NCBI GenBank assembly: GCA_003151495.1
Contig: PLXR01000042.1
Coordinates: 27,905 to 84,522, forward strand
Length of the DNA stretch: 56,618 nt
Direction: 5' to 3'
DNA from: Opitutaceae bacterium
GTDB lineage: Bacteria; Verrucomicrobiota; Verrucomicrobiia; Opitutales; Opitutaceae
Under the pieces are notes generated by a model that saw only the letters and a list, made by a program, of their open reading frames with translations, searched no databases and was not told where the DNA came from. The translations under genes and the position numbers were made by a program. How positions within the stretch are numbered: the first letter of the stretch is position 1; each line of letters starts with the position of its first letter. Positions 11,589 to 52,287 of this stretch are shown in pieces.

Positions 11589-12082
11589 TGGTAATCAATT
11601 CTCGTTTCGCGTTCGGCTGAATGATCGGCTTTCCGATTCATCTGTCACATACCACGTTTACGTGTTTTTACGTGTTTGAAAGTTTGCCGCTTATTGAAAG
11701 GCGAGACGTATGCTGGATTTCCTGGAAGACCGGGGCCTCTAATTTTCCGGATGTGAGCGTATCGTCGAGCCTCAACGCGAGGACGGAGAGAAACTCGGCG
11801 TAGGCCTCCAAAAGGGCGATGGCTAAGAGTCGGGCAGTTTGGACAGGGAATATTTGGAGGTCTTGGGGATTCCGCGCGATCGGGGTGGGACGGAGGATTT
11901 ATATGCCGGTCCCTTACCGTTATGCCCTGAGTTCCGTTATCGGGGAAATCGGTAAGACCACCCGCCCGGAATATTGAACAAACGCCGTCCCGGGCCGTCT
12001 ATATACATTGAAAGGGTAGGGCTCGTTGAAAACGGCCCCAGGGGCCAAACGCCAGGACGTCGGTAAACAGGAGACCATCCCC
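11589..12082. other. intergenic region, probable divergent promoters
   Basis: About 490 bases between the minus-strand cassette and the plus-strand TonB-like gene. The only coding-like stretch is on the minus strand around 11660-11890, where an open frame of roughly 75 codons reads like a helical peptide (ARLLAIALLEAYAEFL) but has no ATG. A CAGGAGA ribosome-binding site (12068-12074) precedes the TonB-like start. Nothing else recognisable was seen. Confidence 0.4.
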
Positions 12083-12751
12083 ATGAGAATATACTCCACC
12101 TCCCGCCGGCAGGACCTCCTCGTGGGGTCCCTTGTCTCGACGATAGTCGTGTCCCTCGCGTTCTGGCTCAGCATTACGGACCTCCGGGCCGTTCCAGGCC
12201 CCGTCCGGACGAAGGAGCCCCCCGCTAAGCGTTTTGAAGTACCGCTGGACGAGGAGGTGGTGACGACCGACGACCCTCTCGCCCCCATGAAGCCCCAGGC
12301 GCCGCAGCCGCCGGACATCCCGGACGCGCCCCAGCCGGTCAGGACGGACTCGATCATGCAGCCGATCGAGCCTCCGCGGCCCGACAGCTCACCCTCGGAC
12401 ATGAGGACGATCCCGGCGGACTGGAGCCGCAATCCCGGCCCGATGAACGAGGTGTTCGACACCTCAAGGCTCGACCAGCAGCCCGTGCCGCGCTCCCAGG
12501 CGAGCCCGCAATATCCCTTTGAGATGAGGAACCAGGGGGTCACCGGGGAGGTGATTGTCGACTTCATCGTGGACACGGCCGGCAACGTGCGGAACGCCCG
12601 TGCGATCCGGGGCACAAACCCGGACTTCGAGGCCGCGGCGGTTTCGGCAGTCGGCAAGTGGAAGTTCCGGCCGGGCCGGAAGGCGAACCACGCGGTCTTC
12701 ACCCACATGCAGGTCCCGATCGAGTTCACGCTCGCGGACTCGGAAAAGTAG
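12083..12751 (+). CDS. TonB-like energy transducer protein
   Basis: Protein of 222 residues with TonB architecture. An N-terminal anchor helix (about 10-32, LLVGSLVSTIVVSLAFWL) leads into a long proline-rich periplasmic linker (PMKPQAPQPPDIPDAPQPV). The C-terminal TonB domain (about 135-218) carries SPQYPFEMRNQGVTGEV, VDFIVDTAGNVRNARAI and KWKFRPG. TonB proteins transmit proton-motive force to outer-membrane receptors, but no exbB/exbD or receptor gene is in the window, so a partner must lie elsewhere. The ATG at 12083 has a CAGGAGA upstream and removes an unlikely 19-residue extension. The end (THMQVPIEFTL) is nearly shared with the sigma-TonB fusion at 22254-23594, suggesting paralogy. Confidence 0.88.
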   Translation: MRIYSTSRRQDLLVGSLVSTIVVSLAFWLSITDLRAVPGPVRTKEPPAKRFEVPLDEEVVTTDDPLAPMKPQAPQPPDIPDAPQPVRTDSIMQPIEPPRPDSSPSDMRTIPADWSRNPGPMNEVFDTSRLDQQPVPRSQASPQYPFEMRNQGVTGEVIVDFIVDTAGNVRNARAIRGTNPDFEAAAVSAVGKWKFRPGRKANHAVFTHMQVPIEFTLADSEK

Positions 12752-12786: not shown

Positions 12787-14826
12787 CTATAGCTTAACCC
12801 GGCGGAGCCTCAGGGCGTTGCAGACCACCGTTATCGAGCTAAGGCTCATGGCGACCGCCGCGACCATTGGATTGAGAAGCCACCCGGTGAAGGGAAAGAG
12901 CGCGCCTGCGGCGATCGGCAGCCCCGCGAGATTGTAGGCAAAGGCCCAGAACAGGTTCTGCTTGATGTTGCGGAGCGTCGCGCGGCTCAGTCGGACGGCG
13001 CGGACGAGCGCCGCGAGGTCGCCCTGAAGGAGGACCAGGCCTGCGCTGTCCATCGCCACGCTGGTGCCCGTTCCCATCGCCACACCGGCGTCGGCCGCCG
13101 CGAGGGCCGGGGCGTCGTTCAGCCCGTCCCCGACAAACGCTACGCGTTCACCTTTTGCCCGTCGCTCGAGGACGATCTCCTGCTTGCGCGCGGGCGACAC
13201 GGCGGCGTGGTATCCGTCGAGCCCGAGCTCGGTCGCGACGGCCTGTGCAGCAGACTCACGGTCGCCGGTCACCATGACGACCCTAAGGCCGAGTTTCTGG
13301 AGTTCCCGTATCGCCATGGGGGTCGTGGGCTTCACCTCGTCGACGAGCGCGATGGTTCCGGCGTCCTTGCCGTCGCAGGTGACGGTGACCAGCGTGGCCG
13401 TCGGATGGGTCGTCGCCCCGGCGTCGGCCCGGGCGACGGACATTAGCTTTCCCTCCACGCGGGCGCGTATGCCCACTCCCGGCTCGGCGGCAAACTCGGA
13501 GGCGGGTGACAGGGACAGATGCCTCTCGGCTGCCGCCGCGACGATGGCCCGCGCGAGCGGGTGCTCGCTCGGCGTCTCGGCTGCGGCCGCGAGCGAAAGG
13601 ACCTCCTCCTCACTGAAACCCGGCGCGGGAAAAACGCTCAGGAGCCTTGGCCGGCCAAGGGTGAGCGTCCCGGTCTTGTCGATGAGGAGGGTGTCCGCGG
13701 TCGCAAGGCGCTCAAGCGCCGCGGCGTCCTTCACGAGCACCCCGGCCTTTGCACCCCGGCCGATTGCCGTCACGATCGAGACGGGGGTCGCGAGCCCGAG
13801 GGCGCACGGGCAGGCGATGATGAGGACGGCGACCGAGTTCAGGAGGGCAAAGATAAACCGGGGATCGGGCCCGAACAGGATCCACGCGGCGAACGTGACC
13901 GCTGCGAACGTCCCAACGGCGGGGACGAACCAGGCGGCGACCCGGTCGACGATGCGCGCGATCGGGGGCTCGGTCTCCCGCGCCTGCTCCACAAGGCGGA
14001 CGATGCCCGCAAGGAGCGTGTCGCGGCCGACCTTCGTCGCGCGAAGGACGAACGATCCCGTGATGTTGAGGGTGCCCGCGCTCACGGGGTCGCCTGGCCG
14101 CTTGACGACGGGAACGGGCTCGCCCGTCAGCATGGACTCGTCGAGCTCGCTGGCACCTTCGGTAAGAGCGCCATCAACCGGGACGTGCTCGCCCGGGCGC
14201 ACGCGTAGGAGATCCCCGGGTTGAACCCCCTCCAGGGGGACTTCGTGCTCGCCTCCGTCGGTATCAATGCGGTGGGCGATCTTTGGCGCGAGATCCATCA
14301 GGGCCCGTATGGCGGCATCGGTATGGGCATGGGCGCGCTGCTCCAGGATCTGGCCGAGGAGCACGACGGTCGTGATGAAGGCGCTAGCCTCGAAATAGAG
14401 CGGCACGCCGTGTGCCGTGCGGAACGCAATGGGAAACGAGCCGCCAAACAGTACCGCGGCGAGACTGTAGAAGTATGCGGCGCCGGTGCCGGTTACGGTG
14501 AGCGTGAACATGTTGGGGTCGCGCTCGCGGAGCGAGTTCCACCAGCGACGGATGAAGAAGGCGCCGCACCAGAAGAACACCGGCGTCGCCAGAATCAGCT
14601 GCGCCCACGCAAGGTATTCCGGGTCGGCGTGCTGTGCCGCGTGGGGCGCCAGCATGGGTCCCATTGAGATGGCGAGCAGCGGGACGGTGAGGGCGACGGC
14701 CACGTAGAACCGTGAACGCAGGACGCGCTCATGGGGAAGGCCCATGTATACGGGCTCGTCCGGAGCGGCACCCCCTCCCATGGGATCCGAGCGGGAGGAA
14801 GTGTTCGGTTCCCGATGGACGTGCAT
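12787..14826 (-). CDS. copA: Cu(+)-type P-type ATPase lacking an N-terminal metal-binding domain
   Basis: Heavy-metal P1B ATPase of 679 residues that exports monovalent copper (or silver) across the inner membrane. Visible signatures are the actuator TGE motif ([10 protein letters not shown]), the transmembrane CPC motif (Cys339-Pro-Cys341), the phosphorylation site DKTGT (Asp383), SEHPLARA in the nucleotide-binding domain and [10 protein letters not shown]. The subgroup is set by FAYN in the seventh helix and MSLSS in the last, the Cu(+) P1B-1 pattern. The usual GMTCxxC domain is absent; instead the short N-terminus begins MHVHREP and a His-containing loop ([10 protein letters not shown]) follows helix 1. 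Start at the ATG of 14824-14826; an in-frame TTG lies 12 codons upstream. A TonB-domain gene diverges from it. Confidence 0.93.
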
Positions 14827-14994
14827 CGGCGGAAGGATAGCCCGCAACGCCCGGCATGGCAATCGGGACGACCAATCCGCAGCTGCCGGAGGCCGAGTTG
14901 CTTTTCTTCAGGCGCGCTTCCATTCGCCGAGTGTTCCCGCGAAGAAAGCCGCAACTTTCGGGAACCGCGGCGTGTTCAATGGGGGCAACCCAAT

Positions 14995-15378
14995 ATGTAC
15001 AACAAGACCCTTCGACTCAGTCCCATCGTGGCCGCAATAGCGGCCATTGCCTCCCTCTCGCCCAACCTGCTGAACGCCCAGGATGTGGCCAGCTCCGCCG
15101 GCCAGGCACCCAAGGCGATTTCCCAGCTCGCGCCCAACTACTCCTACGACCTCCGCCATGACGAGGTCCAGGGGCAGGTTGTCGTCTCGTTCACGGTCAC
15201 TCCGGCCGGTGACGTGGCGAACGCGAAGGTCGTGAGCTCGACGGAAGGCCGGCTCGTCAAGCCGACCCTCGCCGCCCTGAGCAAGTGGACGTATTCGCCC
15301 GCGATGAAGGCTGGCGTTCCTGTCGCCTCCAAGGTTCTCGAGACGGTCAACTTCACGCTGCCCGATTCATCCCAGTAA
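14995..15378 (+). CDS. exported TonB C-terminal-domain protein
   Basis: Small exported protein of 127 residues: an N-terminal signal peptide (hydrophobic core IVAAIAAIASL, cleavage likely near LLNAQD) followed almost directly by a TonB C-terminal domain. The domain is recognisable from QVVVSFTVTPAGDVANAKVV, then ALSKWTYSPAMKAGVPV and VNFTLPDSS. There is no proline-rich spanner and no retained anchor unless the signal is uncleaved, so it is not a classical TonB. It may be a free periplasmic TonB-domain protein. The frame opens upstream to 14731, but the ATG at 14995 gives a proper signal peptide. It diverges from the copper ATPase and ends in a strong terminator at 15403-15427. Confidence 0.8.
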   Translation: MYNKTLRLSPIVAAIAAIASLSPNLLNAQDVASSAGQAPKAISQLAPNYSYDLRHDEVQGQVVVSFTVTPAGDVANAKVVSSTEGRLVKPTLAALSKWTYSPAMKAGVPVASKVLETVNFTLPDSSQ

Positions 15379-16940: not shown

Positions 16941-19538
16941 ATGAGCTGGATCCGGCAATTCTTGTTCAAGGTCTGGGGGAGCGTGGGAAAGGAGGGTCTG
17001 GATGCGGAAATGTCCGAGGAGGTGCGGATGCACATCGAGCTGCTCGCAGAACGAAACGTGAGGAATGGGATGTCGCCGGAGGAGGCGCTTTATGCAGCCC
17101 GGAGGCGCTTCGGGGGAACCGACCAGATTGAGGAGAAATGCCGCGACGAGCGGAGGCTGCACTGGATCGAGAACTTCATGCGGGACCTCCGGTTCGCGCT
17201 GCGGGGGCTGTGCAGGAAACCGGGATTCACGGTCGCCATGATGGCCATCCTCGCGATCGGCATCGGTGCGACTTCGGCAATCGTGAACATCGGGCGGGCC
17301 ATCGTTTTCCCGGTCATTCCGTTTCCCGAGCCCGATCGCCTGGTGATCGTGACCGACTCCAACGAACAGGCATCCCCGACTCCCTATCCGTTCTTCACCT
17401 TCTCCTCCCGGTTTGAGGCCCTTCGCGAAACCTCGAAGTCGTTTGCGGGTCTCGGCGCGGTGCGCCTTGAGTCGATGAACCTGGTCATAGGAGACACGCC
17501 GGCGCCTGCGCAGGTCAACTGGGTGACGGACGATTTTCTCGGCGTGCTCGGCGCGGTCGCGGAACGCGGCCGCCTGTTTGTGCCGGGGGACTTCAAGGGG
17601 TCGAGCGGCGACGTGGCGGTGTTGGACTGGGTGTGCTGGCAGAGGCGATTCGGAGGGGACCCGGGAATCGTCGGCAAGGACATCTTCCTTGGAGGAAAGT
17701 CGAGAACGGTGGTCGGGGTGCTGGCGAAGGCATTTCGTTCGCCTCCTTTTTTCGCACCCGGCGAGATCTTCCTTCCTGAGTCGTTCTCGCCGAAATCCGG
17801 ACTGTGGCCGTTCCGCTGGCTGCAGGTGGTCGGGCGGCTGAGGAAGGGCATCGCAAGGGACACGGCCCAGGCGGAGACGGGCATGTTCCGTTTTCCAGAG
17901 CTCAAGGGCCAGGACGCGAAGCCTCGGCTGGTGCCGCTGCCCGCCTACTACGGGATTGGCCGGGACAACCTGTTCTGGGTGTTCCTCGGGGCCGTCGGTT
18001 TCCTGTACGCGATAGCCTGCAGCAACGCCGCGAGCCTCATGCTGACAAGGACCGTGGGACGTCGCCGCGAGCTGGGCATCCGGCTGGCGATGGGGGGCAG
18101 CCGCTGGCAGATCGCGCGCCTGCTTGTCGCGGAGAGCCTCGTGCTCTCCCTGACCGGCGGGGCTATCGGGTTGCTCCTCTCCTGGTGGAGCTACTCGGCC
18201 GCCGGCCCGATCTTCAACCTCCAGTTCAGTTTCGACCTGGCCGCGCTGGCGATCACGCTGGCCCTGAGCGTCCTCACCTGCTGCGTCGTCGTCCTCGTGC
18301 CCACGCTGCGGCTCCAGAACGCGCGGCTGAGCGAGGTCCTGAACGAGGGGGCGGGATCGCTAGGCGACAGCCGCAGGCTGGGGCGCCTGCGCGCGGGTTT
18401 CGTGGTGGTCCAGGCGGCGCTTGCGGTGGCCCTCTTGTGCGGCGCCGGCATGATGGCACGGAGCTTCCTTCGGCTTCAGAAGGTGAACCTGGGATTCGAC
18501 CCGACCAACAAGGTCGGGGTCTCCGGCATCCTGCCGGAGAACATGCCGCAGAAAGACTACCTCCAGCTCGCCGACCGGATGCGGGAGGTGCTCTGTACGC
18601 TTCCCGGGGTCAAGGACGCGACATTCTCCGTCGTTGTCCCGTTCTCGGGATTTGCGATGTCGATGGTGTGCAAGATCGTAGGCCGGCCCGAGCTCAAGGA
18701 TGTCACGTTCAGCTACAACAAGGTGTCGCCGGAGTATTTCTCGACGCTGGGGGTGCCCATTCTTGCGGGCCGCGGATTTGAAGGGATGAAGGCCGGCGAC
18801 CCGCCGGTTGCCGTCATCAACCGGGCCGCCGCCCGGAAGTATTTTGGCGACTCGAGCCCGATAGGTCAGCGGCTGGATCTCGACAAGGATGGGAAGTGGG
18901 AGATCGTCGGCGTGGTGGGTGACGTCAAGGAGATGAGCCGGCGAATGGAGCCTTCACCCCAGCTGTACATGCCCCTCTGGCAGCCGCCGGTGAGCACGGG
19001 GCTGCTCTTTGAACTCGTCCGGATGGCCGCCGAGCCCGGGCCGGACTTCGAGGCGCGGGTCCGGCGCGCCGCCTACGAGGTGGATCCGCGGATGGCGGTC
19101 AGCCTGAGCCGGCTGACGAACAATGCGGACGACAGCATCAAGACCGAGCGCTACACCATGGTCGTGCTCCAGGTGCTCTCCGCGCTCGCCCTGATCCTGG
19201 CGATGCTGGGCATATTCGCGGTGATGGCCTTCGCGGTGGCCCAGCGCCAGCGCGAGCTAGGGCTGAGGATGGCGCTGGGAGCCGCGCCCGCCGACCTCAT
19301 GCGGTCGGTGCTGGCCCGCGGCATGGGGCTCGCGGCCGTTGGCGTGGCGGTGGGCCTCGGCGCGGCATGGGGATTGACGCGGTTCCTCCAGTCCGTGCTT
19401 TTCGAGACCAGCCCCCACGACCCGACCACGCTGGTGGCGGTGGCTTTCCTGTTGCTGGCCGTCGCCCTGCTGGCGTGCTGGCTGCCGGCGCGGAGGGCGG
19501 CCAGTATCGATCCCATCCAGGCGCTCAGGATGGAATGA
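16941..19538 (+). CDS. MacB/FtsX-type orphan permease (ADOP family, module 1)
   Basis: Large membrane protein of 865 residues without its own ATPase. Residues 1-75 form a cytoplasmic permease-prefix helix bundle (EEVRMHIELLAERNVRNGMSP). A first membrane helix (about 92-115) opens a MacB-like periplasmic domain, then an FtsX domain (about 345-450) with RRRELGIRLAMGGSRW. A second helix/periplasmic/FtsX unit follows, ending with QRQRELGLRMALGA and RRAASIDPIQALRME. This duplicated layout is the 'acidobacterial duplicated orphan permease' type. The ATP-binding partner is not in the window. It is coupled to a PadR gene 7 bases upstream. Substrate unknown; related systems export peptides, lipoproteins or antimicrobial compounds. 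Confidence 0.92.
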   Translation: MSWIRQFLFKVWGSVGKEGLDAEMSEEVRMHIELLAERNVRNGMSPEEALYAARRRFGGTDQIEEKCRDERRLHWIENFMRDLRFALRGLCRKPGFTVAMMAILAIGIGATSAIVNIGRAIVFPVIPFPEPDRLVIVTDSNEQASPTPYPFFTFSSRFEALRETSKSFAGLGAVRLESMNLVIGDTPAPAQVNWVTDDFLGVLGAVAERGRLFVPGDFKGSSGDVAVLDWVCWQRRFGGDPGIVGKDIFLGGKSRTVVGVLAKAFRSPPFFAPGEIFLPESFSPKSGLWPFRWLQVVGRLRKGIARDTAQAETGMFRFPELKGQDAKPRLVPLPAYYGIGRDNLFWVFLGAVGFLYAIACSNAASLMLTRTVGRRRELGIRLAMGGSRWQIARLLVAESLVLSLTGGAIGLLLSWWSYSAAGPIFNLQFSFDLAALAITLALSVLTCCVVVLVPTLRLQNARLSEVLNEGAGSLGDSRRLGRLRAGFVVVQAALAVALLCGAGMMARSFLRLQKVNLGFDPTNKVGVSGILPENMPQKDYLQLADRMREVLCTLPGVKDATFSVVVPFSGFAMSMVCKIVGRPELKDVTFSYNKVSPEYFSTLGVPILAGRGFEGMKAGDPPVAVINRAAARKYFGDSSPIGQRLDLDKDGKWEIVGVVGDVKEMSRRMEPSPQLYMPLWQPPVSTGLLFELVRMAAEPGPDFEARVRRAAYEVDPRMAVSLSRLTNNADDSIKTERYTMVVLQVLSALALILAMLGIFAVMAFAVAQRQRELGLRMALGAAPADLMRSVLARGMGLAAVGVAVGLGAAWGLTRFLQSVLFETSPHDPTTLVAVAFLLLAVALLACWLPARRAASIDPIQALRME

Positions 19539-19694: not shown

Positions 19695-21476
19695 ATGAAC
19701 CGCCTTCTCCTCATCGTCGGACTGGTACTCGCCACCCGGCCGCTTTCGGCTCGCGAGGCCAAGTGGACCCGGCTCGAGGCCGGCAACTTCACGATCATCT
19801 CGGCGGTCTCGGAGGAGGAGACCCGGGGCTGGGCGACGGAATTCGAGCAGTTTCACCGGGGACTCCAGAGGGTCCTGAGGATCAACGAGGCCGCCCTGCA
19901 GCCGGTCACGGTGGTCCTGTTCAAGTCCCAGGGGGACATGCGGCCCTACAAGCCCCTGGAGAAGGGCAAGCCTGCCGAGATAGACGGCATGTTCTTCCGG
20001 GGACCCCTCGGCAACTTCATCGAGGCGGCCGTCGACTCGGAGGACGGCGAGACGCGCCGCCTTATCTTCCACGAGGGTGTCCACTGGATGACCAACGTGA
20101 CCGACACGCCCGTTCCGCTGTGGCTCGACGAGGGGCTGGCCGAGGTGTTCTCGACCTTCTCGATCGACAAGGACCTGTACAACTACGGCAACGTCCTTGC
20201 CGGGCACGTGCTCCTGCTGGACAGGGAGGGGATGATGCCGCTCAGGAAGCTCCTGGAGATCCAGAGGGGGTCGCTCCTCTACAACGAGGGCGAGCGGACG
20301 AGCATTTTCTACGCGGAGTCGTGGGCCTTCGTCCACTACCTCCTCTTCTCCGGCAAGCTTGAGGAGCGGTCGAAGTTCAACGAGCTTGTCCGCAGCCTCC
20401 GGGGCCGCTCGGACCCGGACACGGTCTTCAGGAAGGTGTTCGGATTCGACTGCTCCGAGATGGACGCGCGCCTGAAGGACTACTTGCGCCACGGGGACTA
20501 CTCGATCGTCCGGATGAAGTTCGACCGCTCCGCGGTGGAGAGGTCCTTTGGGGTTCGAAGGGCCACCCGGGCGGAGGTCGACCTTGCTCAGTGCAGCCTG
20601 CTCTCGGCTGCCAAGCGGCCGGCGGACGCGCTCCCGCGCCTCCGGGAGGTCACGCGGGCCATGCCGGACGACCCGGCGGCATGGGTTGCGCAGGGATTCG
20701 CCGCCTACCAGACGGAGGACTACGACGAGACGGACACGTGCTTCAGGCGCGCCGCTGCGCTCGGGTCCCGCAACTATTTCGTCTATTCCTTCCTCGGCGA
20801 CGCGGCGCTGGGGATCCACCCGGGCAGGATCACCCCGTCGATGGCGGGCGACGCGCGCCTCGCCCTGGACTACTTTGAGCGGGAGCTGGAGCTGAGCCCA
20901 AGGGACCAGCACGCCTACGACAACCTTGCCGGGAACGTCTACAACCTGGACCCTATCACCCCGTTGGACGAGAGGACCCTGGAGAATGGCGCGCTGCTCT
21001 TCCCGGACGACCCCATGATACGGGTCGGCATGGCGGTCGCCGGCCTGAGGCAGGGCCACAGGGACGCGGCGACCGGGGTGCTGCAGGGGATCGCCGCCGA
21101 CCCGGCCCCCTCCAGCAGGGACGCAAGCGGCCTGGCCCGCTTCATCCTTGGGGACCGGGCGAGGATCGAGTCGTTCGAGAGGATGAACGACCTTTGGCAG
21201 CGCCAGGACTTTGACGGGGTCATTTCCCTTGCCGGCGAGATGCTCAAGACCCCCCTCAGCGGGGCCGACCGCGAGAGCGTGGTCCGATCCCTGGACCGGG
21301 CGAGGGTCGCGTCCAAGGTGGATCGGGCCGTTCACCTGTGCAATTCAGGGCGATTGGCCGAGGCGAAGGCCCTGCTCCTTGAGGCGGACGCGGCGGCGAC
21401 CGACGCGCAGATGAAGGCGCAGATCGGGGTGCTGCTGGAGCGGATCGCCACCGCCAGGCCGCGGCCGAGGGAGTAG
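19695..21476 (+). CDS. exported gluzincin-like metallopeptidase with TPR region (DUF1570/peptidase MA-like)
   Basis: Exported protein of 593 residues with signal peptide MNRLLLIVGLVLATRPLSA. A zinc-peptidase motif is visible: HEGVH (His126 to His130), with the third ligand probably in LWLDEGLAEVF (Glu146 or Glu150), as in gluzincins of the peptidase MA-like/DUF1570 group. An N-terminal beta domain (about 25-110) resembles those families. From about residue 280 the protein is helical, with TPR-like repeats (AWVAQGFAAYQTEDYDETD; LDYFERELELSPRDQHAYDNLAGNVY). The frame extends upstream to 19578, but the ATG at 19695 gives the signal peptide. It follows the first permease but is separated from it by 156 bases. 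The two genes on its right are convergent. Substrate unknown. Confidence 0.8.
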   Translation: MNRLLLIVGLVLATRPLSAREAKWTRLEAGNFTIISAVSEEETRGWATEFEQFHRGLQRVLRINEAALQPVTVVLFKSQGDMRPYKPLEKGKPAEIDGMFFRGPLGNFIEAAVDSEDGETRRLIFHEGVHWMTNVTDTPVPLWLDEGLAEVFSTFSIDKDLYNYGNVLAGHVLLLDREGMMPLRKLLEIQRGSLLYNEGERTSIFYAESWAFVHYLLFSGKLEERSKFNELVRSLRGRSDPDTVFRKVFGFDCSEMDARLKDYLRHGDYSIVRMKFDRSAVERSFGVRRATRAEVDLAQCSLLSAAKRPADALPRLREVTRAMPDDPAAWVAQGFAAYQTEDYDETDTCFRRAAALGSRNYFVYSFLGDAALGIHPGRITPSMAGDARLALDYFERELELSPRDQHAYDNLAGNVYNLDPITPLDERTLENGALLFPDDPMIRVGMAVAGLRQGHRDAATGVLQGIAADPAPSSRDASGLARFILGDRARIESFERMNDLWQRQDFDGVISLAGEMLKTPLSGADRESVVRSLDRARVASKVDRAVHLCNSGRLAEAKALLLEADAAATDAQMKAQIGVLLERIATARPRPRE

Positions 21477-21487
21477 GGCACACCCCG

Positions 21488-22249
21488 TCAGGGGGAGGGT
21501 GCCGGCGGGCCCGCGACGGTGCTCATGTAGCCCGACAGCACCTCCTCGGGGACCACAAGCTGCCATCCGTCCTGCACGTGCTGGAGCTGGTAGACATTGA
21601 TGCGGCTTATGCCGTCCGAATGGTCAACCCTTGCCGAGATCGCCGCGGCAGCCGCGTCGGGCCATTCGCCTCCCCCGAGTACCGTCATCGCCGAGGCGTC
21701 CTTCGGGAAACTGCCCGCGATCAGCGTCGCCAGGACCCTCTCGGGGCTGCCGTATTCCTGCTGCGAGACAAGGGGCAGCTGTGCAAACAGGGCGTCGGCC
21801 CTCTCCCGGACATCCGGGGTGAAACCCAGGAGGCCGGCGAGCGGGTCGAGCTCCCCGCGCGAGGCCGCCCAGAGCACGCTCTCCAGTGTCGACTTGGGGT
21901 CAAGGCGCCCCGAGTAGCTCCAATCTCTCGCCGCAAGGGTCTCGCCCAGGCCGTAGGGGGTGTTCTTCGATTCAGCCGGTTCGACGGGTTTTGCACGGGT
22001 CAGCTCCTGCTGGAGGCGCTCCGACTCCTGCTTCACCGCCTCCAGGCGCGCGAGCTCCGCCGCGGAGGGCTGGAGCGCCTTGAGCCGTGCGTTCTCGCCC
22101 TGCAGGGCCAGCAGGACCTGGTGCCTCGTCTGCTCCCGCGCGAGCATCGCGTTGCGCTGCCTTCCCCGGGCAACCGACATACCCAGGAGCAGCGCAAGCG
22201 CAGCCGCCGCCGACAGGAATAGGGTCCAGGCAACCGTGCGCGGCTTCAT
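21488..22249 (-). CDS. membrane-anchored coiled-coil protein, partner of sigma-TonB fusion
   Basis: Unrecognised protein of 253 residues. An N-terminal hydrophobic anchor (about 7-26, VAWTLFLSAAAALALLLGM) is followed by a coiled coil (about 30-80, QGENARLKALQPSAAELARL) and a soluble C-terminal domain with PDVRERADALFAQLPL and RINVYQLQHVQDGWQLVVPEE. The last part looks like a small beta domain that may report on protein state. It starts 4 bases after the stop of the sigma-TonB gene, so translation is probably coupled. The shared anchor-plus-coiled-coil plan suggests the two proteins interact at the membrane, possibly as regulator and sigma factor. That is inference from gene order. It ends 11 bases from the convergent peptidase gene. 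Confidence 0.75.
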   Translation of the reverse strand: MKPRTVAWTLFLSAAAALALLLGMSVARGRQRNAMLAREQTRHQVLLALQGENARLKALQPSAAELARLEAVKQESERLQQELTRAKPVEPAESKNTPYGLGETLAARDWSYSGRLDPKSTLESVLWAASRGELDPLAGLLGFTPDVRERADALFAQLPLVSQQEYGSPERVLATLIAGSFPKDASAMTVLGGGEWPDAAAAAISARVDHSDGISRINVYQLQHVQDGWQLVVPEEVLSGYMSTVAGPPAPSP

Positions 22250-22253
22250 CGCT

Positions 22254-23594
22254 TCAGAACCAGGTGGCGGACGTGGCCGGGGGCGGACCGTCCTTGTTCA
22301 GGGTGAACACAATCGGCACCTGCATGTGGGTCACGACGTCCTTCCCCCCGACCGCCCCGGGCTTGAAGGTCCACTGGGTCACGGCATTGACCGCGGAATC
22401 GCTGAGCTCGATGTTGTCCGACGAGGCCACGGTTGGGCTGTAGACCTGGCCGTCGCTGCCCACGTAGAAGTCGACGACCACCGTGCCTGTCGGGGTCGCG
22501 CTGCTCCTGACCGCGTCGGGGTAGACGGGGGGCACCTGCATCACGGGGTGAGGCGCCACATCCAGCTTCGACACGTCATAGGTCAGCTCCGAGGCGGTCA
22601 TGCTCAGGATCTTGATTCGGGGCTTCGGGTCCGGCGCCTTCCGGGAGGCGGCGGCGGAGCCGGCGTCAAGCGCCCGGACCTGCGCCCTCAGGATCGCGAC
22701 GCTCGAGTCCAGCCCCTGGAGCGAGGCCGCGTGTGCCGCGGAGCGCTGCAGGTCGCGGTTCTGGCCCTCGAGGTCGGCTGCTGCGGCATTTTCCGCGCGA
22801 AGGAGGGAAATCTCATCCTGAACCCTCTGACCCGAGGTCTTCTGGAGGGTGAGGGTGGCTGCGCCGCCGATTGCGACTGCGGCCGTGAGGGCGAGGGGGA
22901 GTTTTGATGTGCTCATAAGGGCGATCCACGCGGCGGATGCCGCGCCGCCGCCCGCGAGGGCGGCCGACACGCTCACGGCCGCGACCCCCGAGGGCGCCGC
23001 GATCACGGCCTGCGCCGAGAGGGCGGCCGCCAGGGCGGCCGACGTGGAAGTGATTCCGCGGCGCGAGAGCTTCTCCTGCAGTTTGTCGAGGGCCCTTTCC
23101 ACCCGCATGCGGGCGGCGTTCTCGGAGAGCCTGAGGCGCTGGCCTATCTCGGCGAAGGGCTTATTGGCGAAGAAGCGCAGCAGGATCGCCTGACGGTCCC
23201 GCTCGTCGAGCTCGTTGATCGCGCCGTCGAGCACCGGGCCGACGACGTCCCACGACGGCGGCTCCTGGGCGGGCGATGCCAGAACCTCGTCGGCGGCCGC
23301 CGCCTTCTCGTAGCGGTGCCGGCGGGCCTCCTTCCGGATCAGGTCGAGCGCGGCGAGCCGGCACGCGCGGTGAAGCCAGGCGGGAAGCACCGGATGGCCG
23401 ACCAGTGCGGAGGCCTTTCGGGCGAGGCTCACGAAGACCAGCTGGGTGACCTCGCGGGCCCTGTGGGGGTCGCCCTGCATCTGCCTCAGGGCCGCCGTGT
23501 GGACCATGTCCACGTGGCGGCCGACCAGTTCCGCAAAGGCAGCGTCTGACCTCTGCTCGGAGTACCTTCTGAGAAGCTCGGCGTCATCCGTCAT
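22254..23594 (-). CDS. ECF sigma factor fused through membrane helices to a TonB C-terminal domain
   Basis: Continuous 446-residue ORF. Residues about 1-180 are an ECF-type sigma-70 factor: region 2 (EVTQLVFVSLARKAS, PAWLHRACRLAALDLIRKEA) and region 4 (DERDRQAILLRFFANKPFAEI, RLSENAARMRVERALDKLQ). Residues about 185-252 are alanine-rich, with one or two membrane helices. A coiled coil follows (about 255-310, EISLLRAENAAAADLEGQN), and a TonB C-terminal domain ends the protein (about 350-440: PPVYPDAVRSS, GTVVVDFYVGSDGQV, QWTFKPG). If one helix spans the membrane, the sigma part is cytoplasmic and the TonB part periplasmic. The MTDD start has AAGGA about 7 bases upstream. C-terminal extensions on sigma factors are known in these phyla; this combination is unusual. 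Confidence 0.88.
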   Translation of the reverse strand: MTDDAELLRRYSEQRSDAAFAELVGRHVDMVHTAALRQMQGDPHRAREVTQLVFVSLARKASALVGHPVLPAWLHRACRLAALDLIRKEARRHRYEKAAAADEVLASPAQEPPSWDVVGPVLDGAINELDERDRQAILLRFFANKPFAEIGQRLRLSENAARMRVERALDKLQEKLSRRGITSTSAALAAALSAQAVIAAPSGVAAVSVSAALAGGGAASAAWIALMSTSKLPLALTAAVAIGGAATLTLQKTSGQRVQDEISLLRAENAAAADLEGQNRDLQRSAAHAASLQGLDSSVAILRAQVRALDAGSAAASRKAPDPKPRIKILSMTASELTYDVSKLDVAPHPVMQVPPVYPDAVRSSATPTGTVVVDFYVGSDGQVYSPTVASSDNIELSDSAVNAVTQWTFKPGAVGGKDVVTHMQVPIVFTLNKDGPPPATSATWF

Positions 23595-23703
23595 TGTTTC
23601 CTTACCCATACTGCCGCCGGGGCCGAAACCGCACAAGGTTGCCGGGGGAGACCTTGGCGGAGGGGCCCCTCGGGCTCTCTCCTAGACAAACTACAGGAAG
23701 GGC

Positions 23704-23734
23704 TTGACTCGGTTCTCCTAGAGCGTCTAGGAGA
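23704..23734 (+). promoter_or_regulatory. -35 box and palindromic PadR operator (module 2)
   Basis: TTGACT (23704-23709) is followed by a perfect inverted repeat, arms TCTCCTAGA and TCTAGGAGA around GCG (23714-23734), occupying the expected -10 region. It ends 5 bases before the padR start, so it also includes the ribosome-binding region (AGGAGA). A lone half-site (TCTCCTAGA) lies upstream near 23678. The core matches the module 1 palindrome. Confidence 0.65.
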
Positions 23735-23739
23735 GAGGC

Positions 23740-24072
23740 ATGCCCAAGGACAAATCCGACCTGCTGCAAGGCACTCTCGACATGCTGATCCTCCGGGCCC
23801 TCGAGCCCGGCCCGTCGCATGGGTTCGGGGTGTCGGTCATCATCAGGCGGATCTCCGGGGACGTGCTGCAGGTGGAGCAGGGATCCCTCTATCCGGCGCT
23901 TTATCGCCTCGAGGCCGAGGGCTGGGTGCGCTCGGAGTGGGGGGTGTCCGACAACAACCGGAAGGCGAAATTCTACGAGCTGACGGTTGCGGGCCGCCGG
24001 CAGCTCGCGGTGGAGACCGAGAGCTGGGAGCGGCTCTCCTGCGCCATCAACCTTGTCCTGGGGCATGCGTAG
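23740..24072 (+). CDS. PadR-family transcriptional regulator (module 2)
   Basis: Repressor of 110 residues, close in sequence to the module 1 and module 3 regulators. It has DLLQGTLDMLILRALEPGPSHGFG, then VEQGSLYPALYRLEAEGWV in the winged helix, and WGVSDNNRKAKFYELTVAGRRQL in the wing and C-terminal helix. A perfect palindrome lies immediately upstream, so it probably represses itself and the permease. The permease ATG (24065) overlaps the end of this gene by 8 bases, implying translational coupling. It is transcribed divergently from the sigma-TonB operon, 145 bases apart, so a shared regulatory region is possible. Confidence 0.92.
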   Translation: MPKDKSDLLQGTLDMLILRALEPGPSHGFGVSVIIRRISGDVLQVEQGSLYPALYRLEAEGWVRSEWGVSDNNRKAKFYELTVAGRRQLAVETESWERLSCAINLVLGHA

Positions 24073-26851
24073 CGGGCACTCACTCGTCGCGCCCCTGCGC
24101 CGGCTGGTCCACAGGTTCCTGACCCTGTTCCGCGGGCGCAGGATGGAGGCCGACATGGCGGAGGAGATGCGCCTTCACATGGAGATGCAGGAGGCGGAGC
24201 ACCGCGGCGCGGGAATGACGCCCGGGGAGGCGGCCCTGAAGGCGCGCCGGGAGTTCGGGCACCTGGACGGGATCCGCGAGCAGTGCCGGGACGAGCGGGG
24301 ATTCCTCTGGGTTTCCCAGCTGGGCCAGGACCTGCGCTACGCGTTCCGGATGCTCGCCCGTCACCCGGGCTTCACCGCCGTGGCGGTGCTCACCCTTGCG
24401 CTCGGCATTGGCGTGAACACCGCAATCTTCGGCCTTGTGGACGAGATCCTCCTGAGGCAGCTGCCGGTGAGGGATCCGGGCGGCCTGGTGCTGCTCCGCT
24501 GGTCCTCCAAGATCGACATTCCCGTGCCGACAAGCGGGAGCTGGGAACAGGACCCCGTGACCCACCAGAATTCGTGCACCTCGTTCTCGATTCCCGCGTT
24601 CGAGGGCATGAAGGGGTCGGACGGGGCGCTTTCCGGCGTCGCCGCCTTTGCGCCGATCTCGCGGCTGACGGTGATCGCCGACGGCCAGCCCGAGGCGGTG
24701 GGCCTGGGGCAGCTGGTCTCCGGAGGCTTCTTCTCTCTCCTCGGGGTCGCCCCTGCGGCCGGGAGGCTGATCGGGGACTCCGACGACACACCGGCGGCCG
24801 CGCCCGTGGCCATGATCTCGCACGGCTATTGGATGCGCCGATTCGGCGCCGACCCGTCGGTGCTTGGAAAGACCGTCCTCGTGAATCACATCCCGGTGAC
24901 GATCGTGGGGGTCTGCCCGCGGCGGTTCCCCGGCACGCTCGAGGTGGGCGACGCGCCCGACCTCTTCCTGCCGCTCAGCCTCGCCAAGGGCCTTGGGTCG
25001 TTCGCAATGATCGACGACCCGAATTCGCTCTGGTGGCTCCGGATACTCGGGCGGCTGCGGCCCGGCGCGTCCCCGGCGGCCGTTCGCGCAACCCTCGAGC
25101 CAGCCTTCCAGCTGTCCGTCCTCGACAGCTTCAGGCGGGTGGGGGCGGCGCCCCCCAGGGCCCCGGGCGACCTGCCGACGCTCATCGCCGGGCCGGGAGG
25201 GCAGGGGCTGAGCCGCATCAGGAACGAGTACCGGCAGCGCTGGGCGATCCTCGCGGGACTGGGCGGGACGATCCTCGCGATCGCCTGCGCCAACATCGCG
25301 AGCCTGCTGCTCGCCCGCGGCGCGGCGCGCCAGCGGGAGTTCGGGGTGCGCCTGGCGATGGGCGCCGGCCGGGGCCGCATCATTCGGCAGCTCCTCGCGG
25401 AGAGCGTCCTCCTGTCGGCGCTCGGCGGCGTGCTCGCGGTGCCTTTCGCCGTCTGGATGGAGCGCTGCCTGGTGGCCATGCAGCCCCGGTTCGAGGGGCA
25501 CACGCTTGCCCTGTCCCCCCGCCTTGACTCCGGCGTGTTCCTCATTGCGGCGGCGTTCTCGTTGATTACCGGGGTGGTCTTTGGCCTGGCGCCGGCCCTT
25601 CGGGCCTCCCGGCTGGAGATCAGCGCCGAGTTCCAGGGGGGACAGGGCAATCTCTCCGGCTCCCGGTCGCGCCTGGGGAAGGCGCTCCTGGCCGTGCAGG
25701 TCGCCCTCACCCTCGTGCTCCTTGTCGGGGCGGGCCTGTTTGCGGGCACGCTTCGCAACCTCGCCTCGGTCGACGTCGGGTTCGAGCGCGACGGCCTGCT
25801 GCTCTTCCACCTGGACCCGAGCCTGGACGGTTCCTCCTTCGAGGCGGGCCTGGGCACCGACAACCAGGTTGTGGAGCGGCTGCGGGCGCTCCCTGGCGTC
25901 ACGTCGGCCACGTTCTCGCGGATGCCGCTCCTGAGCGAGATGGGATGGAACTCCCGCATCAGCGTCCCGGGTCGGCCGCCCGGGCAAGGGGGCGGCGGAA
26001 CGGCCATGGTGAACGCGGTGGACCGGGCCTTCTTCGAGACCTATGGGATCCCGCTCGTCGAGGGGCGCCCGGTCGGGCCGAGCGAGACCTCCCGAATCGC
26101 GAGGGTGGCCGTCGTGAACCAGGCCTTTGCCCGGGAATTCTTCGGGGACGAGAACCCCCTCGGCAGGACGATCGAGAGGCCGGATGAGAGGAACACCACG
26201 ATGGCCTACACGGTCATCGGGGTGGCGCGGGACGCGAGGTACTCCTCGGTGAGGGACCCGGTCCCGCCCACCGTCTATTTCCCCTATCATTTCCTCCGGG
26301 GTTCCATGCCGGCGGAGGCCACGTTCGCGGTGCGGGCGCCGGGCGATGTCGCGGCGCTCATCCCCCGGATCCGGGACGTGGTGCGCAGTGTCAACCCGCT
26401 CCTTCCCATCGACGAGTTGAGGACCCAGCGGAGCCAGATCGGGGACCTTTCGTCGACCGAGCGCATGTTCGCCTGGCTTTCGGTGGTGTTCGCCCTCCTG
26501 GCGACGGGGCTCGTGACGCTCGGCCTCTACGGGCTCATGTCCTTCGTGGTCCTGCGCCGCAGGAAGGAGATCGGGCTGCGGATCGCCCTGGGCGCCCGTC
26601 CGCCGGACGTCGTCTGGATGATTGTCCGTGAAAGCCTCGTCATCGTGGGCTCGGGCGTCGGCCTGGGCCTCGTGGGCGCCCTCGCGGCGACCAAGGTCGT
26701 CTCGAGCCTGCTCTTCGGCCTCACCGCGACCGACCCTGCCACGTTCCTCCTGGGCTGTGCGCTGCTCATGTCGGTGGCCCTGATCGCGGGCTGGGTGCCC
26801 GCACGGCGCGCCTCGCGGGTCGACCCCATGGTCGCGCTGCGGACCGAGTAG
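24065..26851 (+). CDS. MacB/FtsX-type orphan permease (ADOP family, module 2)
   Basis: Membrane protein of 928 residues with the same duplicated plan as module 1. The N-terminal permease-prefix domain contains EEMRLHMEMQEAEHRGAGMTP. The first helix (about 100-125, FTAVAVLTLALGIGVNTAIF) leads to a MacB-type periplasmic domain, then FtsX (ANIASLLLARGAARQREFG). The second unit ends with RRRKEIGLRIALGARPP and RRASRVDPMVALRTE. The start is the ATG at 24065, overlapping the padR stop; the open frame upstream of it lies inside padR. No ATPase gene is nearby. A hairpin follows the stop at 26871-26901. Longer than the other two permeases mainly because of its first periplasmic region. Confidence 0.92.
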   Translation: MRSGHSLVAPLRRLVHRFLTLFRGRRMEADMAEEMRLHMEMQEAEHRGAGMTPGEAALKARREFGHLDGIREQCRDERGFLWVSQLGQDLRYAFRMLARHPGFTAVAVLTLALGIGVNTAIFGLVDEILLRQLPVRDPGGLVLLRWSSKIDIPVPTSGSWEQDPVTHQNSCTSFSIPAFEGMKGSDGALSGVAAFAPISRLTVIADGQPEAVGLGQLVSGGFFSLLGVAPAAGRLIGDSDDTPAAAPVAMISHGYWMRRFGADPSVLGKTVLVNHIPVTIVGVCPRRFPGTLEVGDAPDLFLPLSLAKGLGSFAMIDDPNSLWWLRILGRLRPGASPAAVRATLEPAFQLSVLDSFRRVGAAPPRAPGDLPTLIAGPGGQGLSRIRNEYRQRWAILAGLGGTILAIACANIASLLLARGAARQREFGVRLAMGAGRGRIIRQLLAESVLLSALGGVLAVPFAVWMERCLVAMQPRFEGHTLALSPRLDSGVFLIAAAFSLITGVVFGLAPALRASRLEISAEFQGGQGNLSGSRSRLGKALLAVQVALTLVLLVGAGLFAGTLRNLASVDVGFERDGLLLFHLDPSLDGSSFEAGLGTDNQVVERLRALPGVTSATFSRMPLLSEMGWNSRISVPGRPPGQGGGGTAMVNAVDRAFFETYGIPLVEGRPVGPSETSRIARVAVVNQAFAREFFGDENPLGRTIERPDERNTTMAYTVIGVARDARYSSVRDPVPPTVYFPYHFLRGSMPAEATFAVRAPGDVAALIPRIRDVVRSVNPLLPIDELRTQRSQIGDLSSTERMFAWLSVVFALLATGLVTLGLYGLMSFVVLRRRKEIGLRIALGARPPDVVWMIVRESLVIVGSGVGLGLVGALAATKVVSSLLFGLTATDPATFLLGCALLMSVALIAGWVPARRASRVDPMVALRTE

Positions 26852-35058: not shown

Positions 35059-36471
35059 TCAGCCGGATGCGGGCAAAGCAGGTGTGGCCGGCACGGGCTT
35101 CGGCGCATTGAAGACGAAGGGGATGGTTATGATCGCCATCGCCGGTCCACCATCAACCTCGGCAGGCTGGAATTTCCATCGAAGGACCGCCTCGACCGAC
35201 GCGCTATTGAATCTCGCGTCGCTCGACTCAACCACTCGCGCGGCCTCCACGCTGCCCCGGGCGTCGACGACGAATGAAACGAGGACCGTAACGGTCGCAT
35301 TTGGAGGAGGGGAGGGATCCGGCTGCTCAGGGGCAACGGATGATATGAGTTTTGGAAGCCGTTTGTAGTGCATATCCCTCTTCAGGAGAGCGACATATTC
35401 AGGGACGTCGGACCAAAGCTGCCCGACCTTGTCAATTACCTGGGGTGCCGTCGACTCCAGCTTGGAGTCCCCATGGGCCTCCTGATAACTGCGCGCGGCT
35501 TTTGTGCTCGCGACCGCCCCGTCCACCTGGACGGTCATCAATCCCAGCTTTTGGCGGCCTCCTCCCGAAGCGGGCAGGGGAAGCGTATCCAGGTGGAATG
35601 GAACCTTCAGGAGCGACCCTGGAGTGATAAGCCAGCAGGCCAGCCTCGCGCCCCCCGGGAGGCCCGTCCCGAGATGATAGGTGTCGAACCGCTTTCCCGG
35701 GCTGCCTTGGTATCCGCTGGAGTGATAATTGCCGCCGTGGTTGTAGCGCAGCGGGCTGCCATCTGCCGCCTGGATCTCGAGACCGACAATCCGTTCTTCC
35801 GGGTCGTCAATCGCCACGGCGATATCGCCCTCCTCCATTTCTTGCTTGGGGAACCCATGCGGGGGTTTGAATAGTGACTGTCCAAACATGGGGCCGGCAT
35901 CGTAATCCTGGGGCCCCCCCTTGATCTTAGCGGCGGCGGTTGCATAGGCACACTTCTTGTCGAACACGATCAGGGTGATACCAGCATTGGCCAGAGCCTC
36001 CGATGCGATTGGGGAACCAAACTGGGTGTCAATGTTCCCGACAACGACAGTCGATCCGGGATCAAGGTCGGGAATGACGAGTTCCAGGGTCCCGGAGACC
36101 ATCTCAAGGGCCTTCGCGCCCACGGACAGCCCCCAGAGCGTGAAAGGAGTAGGCTCCCTGGAAGTGAGGTCCTTGGAGTCATCAATTCGCCCAGCGGTGA
36201 TGGAGTAGAACTTGTTCGTGGTGCTCTGCGTCAACACAGCTCCGTTGTCATCCAGGGCATGGGAGAGGGTCACGCGGCCGGCTCGAACGCGCGATTCCAA
36301 CGGACCTACAGGTGCGAGGTATGCATTTATACCCCGAGTTCCGTCCCGCATGTTGACCGTGGTTTCAGCGGAGATCTCGAGCTGGACTGCATCGGTAACC
36401 TCCGCCTCAGCCTCGAGGCAACCGCCTAATAGCATCGCCACGGCGATCCTGCTGATTTTCATGCGGTTCAT
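35059..36471 (-). CDS. exported protein with TonB C-terminal domain
   Basis: Protein of 470 residues. The start is uncertain among ATGs ending at 36492, 36471 and 36462; the last gives the shortest signal peptide (MKISRIAVAMLLGGCLEAEA). Residues about 25-370 are an unrecognised beta-rich extracytoplasmic domain with GSTVVVGNIDTQFGSPI, then EERIVGLEIQAADGSPLRYN and YHSSGYQGSPGKRF. The final 90 residues are a TonB C-terminal domain: LVSFVVDARGSVEAARVVES, VLRWKFQPAEVDGG. No proline-rich TonB spanner is present, so this is a large periplasmic protein with a TonB-like tail, of unknown target. It is transcribed toward the nfeD operon on the same strand, about 200 bases away. Confidence 0.78.
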   Translation of the reverse strand: MNRMKISRIAVAMLLGGCLEAEAEVTDAVQLEISAETTVNMRDGTRGINAYLAPVGPLESRVRAGRVTLSHALDDNGAVLTQSTTNKFYSITAGRIDDSKDLTSREPTPFTLWGLSVGAKALEMVSGTLELVIPDLDPGSTVVVGNIDTQFGSPIASEALANAGITLIVFDKKCAYATAAAKIKGGPQDYDAGPMFGQSLFKPPHGFPKQEMEEGDIAVAIDDPEERIVGLEIQAADGSPLRYNHGGNYHSSGYQGSPGKRFDTYHLGTGLPGGARLACWLITPGSLLKVPFHLDTLPLPASGGGRQKLGLMTVQVDGAVASTKAARSYQEAHGDSKLESTAPQVIDKVGQLWSDVPEYVALLKRDMHYKRLPKLISSVAPEQPDPSPPPNATVTVLVSFVVDARGSVEAARVVESSDARFNSASVEAVLRWKFQPAEVDGGPAMAIITIPFVFNAPKPVPATPALPASG

Positions 36472-36789
36472 AGCCCTGATATCGGAGACCATTCAAGTGC
36501 TGGGTGAAGCCGAAAGCAACTTCAGGTATCTTCGCACCAGATCGATCCAGCTATTCGGACACGAGGCCATTCAATCAGATGCATGGAGCGCGCTCCATAA
36601 GCAGAGGACCAATATTCCCATACGGTGGGTTGAATAAAGGACCGGTTTGTAGCGACGGTTGGGCACGTCAGCTTGTTGCAGCTGGATTTGGGAAGCTGAG
36701 AGAGCTATCCGTCCCTATGTGGAGATGTTTGAATACCGACCATTTGTGGGGTACCTGACCCTCCTGGCAGACAACAAATCGTCAATGCG

Positions 36790-51669: not shown

Positions 51670-52287
51670 CGGGCCGCTGTTCGTTCTATCGGATGATACG
51701 ACCTACTCGAAGCGGAATGGGAGAAACTGCTCCATATCAGAACTGCACAGCGTTGATGCCATCGCCTCGGCACTCTCCATTCGGGAAATGGAATTCTCCG
51801 ACTCATCCGATAGGACTGCAGGGATCCGGGCGGCTAATCCCCATTGCGGCCCTAACGGGCACGAGGACGATTCCATGGAAACGCCTGGGAGTGGCTGAAC
51901 GTGCCGCGGCGTGGGATCACTTCGGTCGCTTCCGTTGTCGTGGCAACGCGGCACATGGTCCATTGCTCTGGAGAGTAAAGGGTCCGCGTTTTCAGTATCA
52001 ACATGAAAGCCTGTGCAATGGATGGCTGGAAGACATGAGCGCAGGAAGTTAGAGCAGGGAATGGCCGTCCTTGGTGCAGAGCTTAGGCTCAATCTAGCCG
52101 GGAGTGCGTCCGCGGATAGCAAATGGCCCTCGCACAAAGCTCTTCAGCCAGCTCTCGGACAAGATAAGGCTGCCGTCGTAAGCCAAAGCGGACACGAACT
52201 ACGAGACGTGATTGGGAAGATTAGCTTGATCCCGTCTAAAAGGGTGGGTTTGGGAACAGCAAGATACTGAAGAGATTGCCCGATCAG
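51670..52287. other. intergenic region without convincing gene
   Basis: About 620 bases between the antiporter start and a small minus-strand membrane-protein gene. Open frames at 51703-52137 (minus) and 52013-52270 (plus) lack recognisable domains or ribosome-binding sites. The antiporter promoter must be in the left part. No repeats or RNA structures were identified. Confidence 0.4.

Follow-up and report, generated by a model that had tools for sequence, protein, structure and literature searches.

An ECF sigma factor fused to a TonB C-terminal domain in the Opitutaceae, with a conserved partner gene and a promoter that it very probably reads itself

The window analysed here, a stretch of 56,618 nucleotides from an Opitutaceae bacterium, encodes on its minus strand a single protein in which an ECF sigma factor is continued by a TonB C-terminal domain, followed closely by a second gene. 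The features of the locus, with the evidence for each in brackets, are these:

23626..23636, minus strand: predicted promoter -35 TTGTGCGGTTT of the sigma gene; its fifth letter is position 10 of the 40-mer, a G (fixed-spacing words, matrix)
23608..23616, minus strand: predicted promoter -10 CGGCAGTAT, ending 13 bases before the ATG (matrix)
22254..23594, minus strand: sigma-TonB fusion ORF, 446 aa, P0001 (uninterrupted translation, Pfam, AlphaFold2 model)
23319..23528, minus strand: sigma-70 region 2, residues 23-92 (Pfam Sigma70_r2 above cut-off)
23073..23222, minus strand: sigma-70 region 4, residues 125-174, holding the putatively promoter-reading N159 and M163 (Pfam Sigma70_r4; covariation)
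22902..23048, minus strand: alanine-rich segment, residues 183-231, model confidence partly low (hydropathy alignment, AlphaFold2)
22845..22901, minus strand: probable single transmembrane helix, residues 232-250 (hydropathy over 101 aligned sequences; model helix)
22641..22844, minus strand: coiled-coil-like long helix, residues 251-318 (AlphaFold2 model helix 234-318)
22299..22532, minus strand: TonB C-terminal domain, residues 355-432 (Pfam TonB_C; Foldseek 6i97_D, 2gsk_B)
22257..22262, minus strand: C-terminal Trp-Phe (WF) tail (WF in relatives; association with NTF2-headed partners)
21488..22249, minus strand: partner gene, 253 aa, with an N-terminal membrane helix, a coiled coil and an NTF2-like head (hydropathy, model, profile)
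21515..21940, minus strand: NTF2-like head of the partner, residues 104-245 (model, Foldseek, profile)

The frame from 23594 to 22254 runs stop-free on the minus strand for 446 residues, and the architecture that a preliminary description had read from the letters, namely sigma regions 2 and 4, a membrane segment, a coil and a TonB C-terminal domain in one ORF, is borne out by Pfam, NCBIfam, AlphaFold2 and Foldseek, with the membrane helix as a probable element. Sigma70_r2, Sigma70_r4 and TonB_C, the domains which that description had suggested searching for, all exceed their Pfam cut-offs (TonB_C at residues 355-432 with an E-value of 2.2e-14), and the NCBIfam matches, sigma70-ECF and tonB_Cterm, agree with them. 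By Pfam, NCBIfam and fold, the sigma half comprises regions 2 and 4 only, region 3 being absent, and it therefore belongs with the ECF (group IV) sigma factors. An AlphaFold2 model built on a 101-sequence alignment (mean pLDDT 83.2) consists of helical sigma domains, one helix from 234 to 318 and a TonB-type end, its poor-confidence stretches (199-208 and 210-236) falling on the alanine-rich part. Foldseek matches the N-terminal half to SigE, SigW, SigK and E. coli sigma-E, and the C-terminal domain to the TonB bound to FoxA (6i97_D, TMt 0.87, rmsd 1.7) and the TonB bound to BtuB (2gsk_B, TMt 0.79); because these are receptor-bound TonB structures, the tail is regarded as a genuine TonB domain, and an unrelated beta domain, one of the ways in which the proposal could have failed, is excluded. 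A frameshift or assembly error joining two genes, raised likewise, is ruled out by relatives of 50-58% identity that span the whole protein and by five single-contig genomes that encode the fusion. An upstream in-frame ATG at 23609, used in P0002, was also considered, and since it overlaps the promoter -10, a start at 23594 is likelier. Pfam found no zinc-finger anti-sigma domain in the fusion; in its C-terminal part TonB_C is the sole match above cut-off, with no FecR/STN-type anti-sigma domain, and an RNA family search over 21000-24500 of the window returned none.

The membrane helix is the weakest point of this architecture, and a single helix is probable on the hydropathy of the aligned sequences. 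In the window's protein, residues 232-250 have a Kyte-Doolittle mean of 1.79, which is only a moderate hydrophobicity; over the zone 226-254 the best 19-residue hydropathy mean averages 1.87 and reaches at least 1.6 in 86 of the 101 aligned sequences.

The same description had called the combination unusual, and here the comparative data speak otherwise. A protein search returned 866 relatives, the window's own protein included, from 7995 candidates scored, and all of the best 120 of the 866 carry both TonB_C and sigma region 4. The genome count that had been proposed as a check came to 26 of 120 sampled genomes of the family with both halves covered, in 18 of 49 genera, where a match had to reach residue 393 or beyond at E <= 1e-90, a threshold that more divergent fusions would escape; five of these 26 genomes consist of one contig each, 4.7-6.1 Mb long. 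Among 288 genomes sampled across the phylum, with up to five candidates scored per genome among the matches listed, matches at 1e-100 occurred in 10, all from the window's family. Every group name given for the 78 named loci, which derive from the best 80 of 175 relatives, is Verrucomicrobiota, and one locus, L043 (Opitutaceae bacterium EW11), is not labelled as a metagenome assembly. Within these loci there are 115 family sigma frames, of which 26 have a TonB-like head and 110 share the anchor-and-coil part. Of ten heads compared with Pfam, two could be named, SLBB (L049) and CarboxypepD_reg (L063), and the remaining eight gave no match above cut-off; the alternative head of L036 and L077 is TPR-like by eye, with no Pfam match in L036. 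The window's genome itself encodes three family sigma paralogs with other ends. As such, the fusion is one member of a large sigma family of Verrucomicrobiota whose heads are exchangeable, TonB being one of several. At one locus (L024, 1287-14058) six family sigma frames with differing heads stand in a row, with partner genes between some of them. A literature search, with most subscription papers outside its reach, produced no paper that we recognised as treating a sigma-TonB fusion and found none on a verrucomicrobial sigma family with exchangeable envelope heads; the self-promoter covariation, the conserved partner gene and the association of WF with NTF2-headed partners are new.

Upstream of the fusion gene lies a 40-base element (23641-23602, minus strand; matrix score 26; matrix consensus TTTTTTGTGCGATTT...CGGCGGGTGTTATA), whose position predicts a near-leaderless sigma-TonB transcript. 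By upstream word count, TTGT-N15-GCGG precedes 23 of 42 TonB-headed sigmas (shuffled maximum 4) and 43 of 131 family sigmas (shuffled maximum 8), in shuffles that preserve single-base composition only. The matrix reaches at least 12 in 118 of the 131 upstream regions (38 of 42 TonB-headed and 80 of 89 other sigmas; shuffled maximum 9.5), mostly 10-26 bases 5' of the start; because it was trained on those same 131 regions this figure holds partly by construction, which does not apply to the word count. A coding origin of the element was considered and rejected, given an in-frame stop before the start in 61 of the 118 and distances that fall in all three frames. The three paralogs of the window's genome carry variants of the element at the corresponding place (scores 12.6-29.3). 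Across loci totalling about 1.5 Mb with duplicates counted, the matrix gave 150 hits of at least 14; 136 are located 5' of family sigma genes, and of the remaining 14, as read from the locus lists, 11 are within about 1 kb upstream of one; these loci overlap those used for the partner counts given below and were not deduplicated. Two small lipoprotein-like genes, named by eye, just before a family sigma (L086, 2133-2728; L017, 9306-10004) have a promoter-like element at their start, as the family sigmas do; the L086 protein has a sub-threshold TonB_C match and the L017 protein none.

Covariation between element and protein was computed over 119 element-sigma pairs (effective number 89). The strongest -35 couplings join element position 10 to N159 and M163 of the region 4 recognition helix, and the strongest -10 couplings join element positions 28-32 to D84, S56, K60 and A77 of region 2. 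Of the ten highest -35 pairs, region 4 (122-178) accounts for seven, S183, a short way past its end, for two and D3 for one (nine of ten if counted from residue 125 on), and 18 of the top 19 -10 pairs involve residues up to 100. In the comparison with permutations, the maximum was 39.5 between the -35 and region 4 and 13.8 between the -10 and region 2, against at most 7.6 for -35 with region 2, 5.1 for -10 with region 4, 7.0 for the anchor (179-252) and 4.9 for spacer bases; one coupling outside these classes joins element position 37 to A191 in the anchor (7.3). The resulting code, which is nearly clean, associates N159 and M163 with G, D159 and M163 mostly with T, and D or E at 159 and K163 with C: of the 119 pairs, 78 combine G with N159/M163, and 36 combine D/E159 with C or T, namely 18 with T (all D159) and 18 with C (D159 or E159). 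The window's own pair conforms, having G with N159 and M163, and C at position 29 with D84. Because the -35 covaries with region 4 and the -10 with region 2, while the anchor and spacer controls stay far below as controls, it is very probable that the sigma half reads the promoter of its own gene, and this computational covariation accords with the bipartite recognition by regions 4 and 2 expected of an ECF factor. Shared descent by itself would not be expected to assign the -35 bases to region 4 and the -10 bases to region 2, and on well-supported independent branches the code does not reach significance, too few pairs being available. The promoter code offers a handle on this large verrucomicrobial family, and the sigma half is testable with a heterologous reporter.

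Strict patterns derived for this promoter match once in the window's genome (80% complete), at the sigma gene itself; G072, a genome of the same genus, likewise has a single match, at the fusion that it encodes, and three congeners without a fusion at E <= 1e-90 gave 0 matches. The genome of L014 bears a fusion with a differing element and is missed by these patterns, as are G020 and G013, and a first, over-strict pattern had 0 matches genome-wide, missing the window's own variant too. Two of three strict matches in G003 fall just upstream of family sigmas; matches elsewhere number one in G003, one in G004 and three in G064, where the reversed control gives 0-2 per genome. With the looser matrix, additional sites in the window occur at 52200 (minus strand, 14.7) and 5926 (plus strand, 10.6), neither of them followed by a clear gene. 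In the genome's own receptor, TonB, ExbB and protease loci that the matrix scan covered, no score exceeded 7.3. No target outside the operon is convincing, and since the window's genome has no second strict match, a regulon beyond the operon is unproven.

The second gene begins 4 bases 3' of the sigma-TonB stop, as the preliminary description correctly noted in proposing it as a partner, and conservation has strengthened that proposal: by profile, a partner lies directly downstream of 39 of 41 TonB-headed sigmas vs 16 of 81 others. These counts are deduplicated (134 distinct sigmas, 43 TonB-headed, of which 41 have 700 bases downstream and 2 were dropped), and directly downstream means a first possible partner start between 300 bases before and 150 bases after the sigma stop. 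The partner's AlphaFold2 model (mean pLDDT 89.6) has an NTF2-like head and a coil similar in length to that of the fusion; the best Foldseek match of the head is the NTF2-like protein 3k7c_A (TMt 0.70), with a weak E-value of 2.3e-3. As the profile of this head also matches in cis in 11 other-headed family sigmas, partner and sigma appear to be functionally tied. Neither Pfam nor NCBIfam gives an anti-sigma family match in the adjacent partner, or a FecR-type match; the gene thus has no recognisable cognate anti-sigma beside it, a novel kind of anti-sigma being possible.

Among 119 relatives from the best 120 of the 866 proteins, WF forms the very end of 72 and falls within the last 12 residues of 80; because eight of the 119 have it near, not at, the end, strict recognition of a C-terminus is disfavoured. 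Of the 41 TonB-headed sigmas, 26 end in WF, and every one of these is accompanied by an NTF2-headed partner (25 within the preset distance, the partner of the 26th, at L143, lying beyond it at about 300 bases downstream), and the 15 sigmas that lack WF have an NTF2-headed partner in 6 cases, a headless one in 8 and none in 1, so that headless partners here accompany non-WF sigmas exclusively. Both other-headed WF sigmas (L036, L077) have an NTF2-headed partner, vs 7 of 79 other-headed sigmas without WF. Fisher's test on the table 25, 1, 6, 9 gives p 1.2e-4, with kinship ignored and the L143 partner not yet included. On a tree of 63 rows, in which every fourth other-headed sigma was used, WF changes at least 8 times and the partner head is never opposite in the sampled independent pairs, of which too few are supported; on well-supported independent branches the association is not significant, again with too few pairs. 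Taken together, WF may be a docking peptide for the NTF2-like head, in which case tail and partner would constitute a defined, mutable switch.

The TonB head is 45% identical over 98 residues to a TonB of the window's genome that lies beside exbB and an ExbD-like gene (the ExbD next to this TonB of C143 was named by eye). The Q-box and the edge strand are the receptor-contacting parts of TonB. Across the family, the Q of the Q-x-x-P-x-Y-P box is present in 90 of 101 heads and the edge strand is strongly conserved, such that Pfam, Foldseek and the alignment concur on a TonB fold with a receptor-binding edge, like that of TonB energy transducers in sequence and in fold. The fusion differs from these transducers in carrying a sigma factor at its N-terminus and in lacking both a proline-rich spacer and the ExbB-coupling motif S-x3-H (SHLS in PMC12204202). 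That motif is found in 0 of 101 membrane helices, and a charged or His residue in the helix in 5 of the 101 aligned proteins; the motif test is weak because S-x3-H is, by eye, also missing from the exb-linked TonB of this genome (L005). Since the Q-box and edge strand are kept and S-x3-H is absent, the head looks like a receptor-binding TonB without power coupling. Between helix and head lie 82-102 residues, mostly one long helix by alignment and model.

Linkage of the family to receptors is weak: receptor genes occur at 4 of 25 TonB-headed loci vs 2 of 53 others, with 20 of the genome's own 22 receptor loci as queries (L106 and L111 excluded for a wrongly chosen frame), and of the 22 plug matches in the window's genome 0 fall within the window. 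TonB-box-like peptides scoring at least 12 behind residue 255 occur in 18 of the 120 listed fusions (shuffled mean 0.5, maximum 4), in a loop or after the head, and 11 of 828 frames picked from the loci reach this score, several of them receptors by eye; the score table was built from 16 of the 22 own-genome receptors (L091, L093, L097, L098, L106 and L111 excluded for a different box type, a different leading domain or a wrongly chosen frame). The window's own fusion has no such peptide, and for that reason the peptide stays outside the main mechanism proposed below. Insertions inside TonB_C (about columns 465-566 of the alignment A1) are seen in P0054, P0056, P0064, P0074, P0079 and P0112, those of P0074, P0079 and P0112 containing a TonB-box-like peptide, and a YfbK/VWA-type protein of L029 (3928-6396) has a receptor-like TonB-box stretch, VVLSAFTVTA, before its VWA domain. 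The window's genome also encodes a Prc-like S41 frame (790 aa), M50 genes and eight ExbB-family matches; because S41 is present in 10 of 14 control genomes and M50 in 14 of 14, both families are widespread and the presence of Prc- and RseP-type proteases says little.

It is reasonable to postulate, at a probability a little below one half (roughly 0.45), a two-gene membrane module in which a self-reading ECF sigma factor bears a TonB head that docks on receptors, the partner acts as a latch and the sigma is released by proteolysis. The fusion, a DNA-reading sigma with its own promoter and the conserved partner are the parts with direct support in the sequence; topology, receptor docking, latch, proteolysis and regulon are parts that we infer. 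The sigma half would face the cytoplasm and the TonB head the periplasm, with the partner alongside the fusion by way of its similarly long coil and its NTF2-like head latching the WF tail. Loaded outer-membrane receptors expose a TonB box, and the head would compete for it, unpowered by ExbB/ExbD. Engagement of a receptor would open the latch, Prc- and RseP-like proteases could then shorten the periplasmic portion and cleave the helix, as happens to IutY, and the freed sigma would transcribe its own operon in positive feedback, together with putative further targets. If this holds, one protein would convert outer-membrane receptor occupancy into transcription, replacing a FecR-type relay. A more elaborate form of the proposal, which we consider doubtful, envisages, for the Opitutaceae and their relatives, private self-transcribing membrane circuits in which each paralog reads only its own promoter through a residue-to-base code, exchangeable periplasmic heads sense the envelope, the TonB head eavesdrops on nutrient receptors by occupying their TonB boxes in rivalry with the powered TonB, the NTF2-like head silences the sigma by clamping WF, and relatives without WF rely instead on a tethered copy of a receptor TonB box.

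Several known systems bear comparison. In FecI-FecR-FecA, the state of an outer-membrane receptor is passed to an ECF sigma by three separate proteins, a parallel in working; the fusion would differ in joining the sigma to a TonB-type head, with a partner that has no FecR-type match. SnoaL has the NTF2 fold, and an NTF2-fold domain tied to an ECF sigma recalls ECF41. Eleven other family sigmas match such a domain in cis; the window, unlike ECF41 with its cytoplasmic domain in cis, has it in trans, on a second protein behind its own membrane helix. Closest in predicted layout is IutY of Pseudomonas putida (ECF243; PMC5411451, PMC8999054), whose one polypeptide combines an ECF sigma in the cytosol with a lone membrane segment and a part in the periplasm, and which is linked to siderophore import. 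The periplasmic part of IutY is an anti-sigma domain and the one predicted for the fusion a TonB domain, with no FecR/STN-type domain by Pfam; the receptor gene iutA adjoins iutY (PMC5411451), and the window has no plug match and a separate NTF2-headed partner. IutY is released by Prc and RseP, and a C-terminally shortened IutY is still processed by Prc (PMC5411451); release of the fusion in the manner of IutY is our best guess by analogy, and a latch on a C-terminal WF is weakened by the processing of the shortened protein. The actinobacterial ECF52/ECF48/ECF53 sigmas, among them SCO4117, likewise have a C-terminal extension with membrane helices, in SCO4117 together with an extracytoplasmic part (PMC8999054), and differ in their heads and in having zinc-finger anti-sigma domains, of which Pfam finds none in the fusion.

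Other readings of the module deserve consideration. One, which we judge unlikely though worth keeping in view, is that of a self-transcribing envelope protein, in which the TonB head and the partner are the product and the sigma only maintains their supply, with no outside regulon. It draws on the single strict match at the own gene in both the window's genome and G072, on the 0 matches in the three congeners without a fusion at E <= 1e-90, on the concentration of matrix hits upstream of family sigmas (136 of 150, with 11 of the other 14 within about 1 kb) and on the diversity of the heads. Target promoters may, however, fall short of the strict pattern, the genome sequence lacks about 20%, and pattern matches elsewhere do occur in G003 (one), G004 (one) and G064 (three), at a reversed control of 0-2 per genome; moreover, ECF autoregulation is usually accompanied by a regulon (PMC8103513). 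That the extension is instead a soluble cytoplasmic domain contacting the sigma, like the SnoaL-like extension of ECF41, with the alanine-rich part as a linker, appears improbable: the moderate hydrophobicity of the window's helix and the low model confidence at 199-208 and 210-236 would suit it, but 86 of 101 sequences keep the hydrophobic zone (1.6 or above), the SLBB and CarboxypepD_reg alternative heads are of envelope type and the partner starts with a hydrophobic helix. We know of no cytoplasmic ligand of a TonB domain.

Two further readings concern what the TonB head does. It might serve as a general probe of envelope stress by binding a ligand that is no receptor, such as the partner, a lipoprotein or peptidoglycan, which is consistent with the weak receptor linkage and with TonB_C-like domains in several other proteins of the genome; we hold this to be very improbable given the retention of the receptor-contacting Q-box and edge strand and the TonB-box-like peptides beside the head in some relatives. 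An energised TonB that carries a sigma, powered by ExbB/ExbD and reporting receptor transport to it, seems to us highly improbable. The closest relationship of the head to a TonB beside exbB and the eight ExbB-family matches would agree with such an arrangement, but S-x3-H is found in none of the 101 helices and a charged or His residue in 5, a coil replaces the proline-rich spacer, and standalone TonBs are present in the genome and in the window; the motif counts weigh less here, the exb-linked TonB also lacking S-x3-H.

Among the other genes of the window, 12026-12751 (plus strand) encodes a standalone TonB-like protein with a hydrophobic helix, a proline-rich part and TonB_C, the type nearest to the fused head, and further TonB_C proteins are encoded at 14731-15378 (plus strand) and 35059-36492 (minus strand). 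Near the module, the plus-strand frames 16941-19538, 23740-24072 and 23987-26851 encode a PadR regulator (padR_acidobact type) and large proteins that look permease-like by eye.
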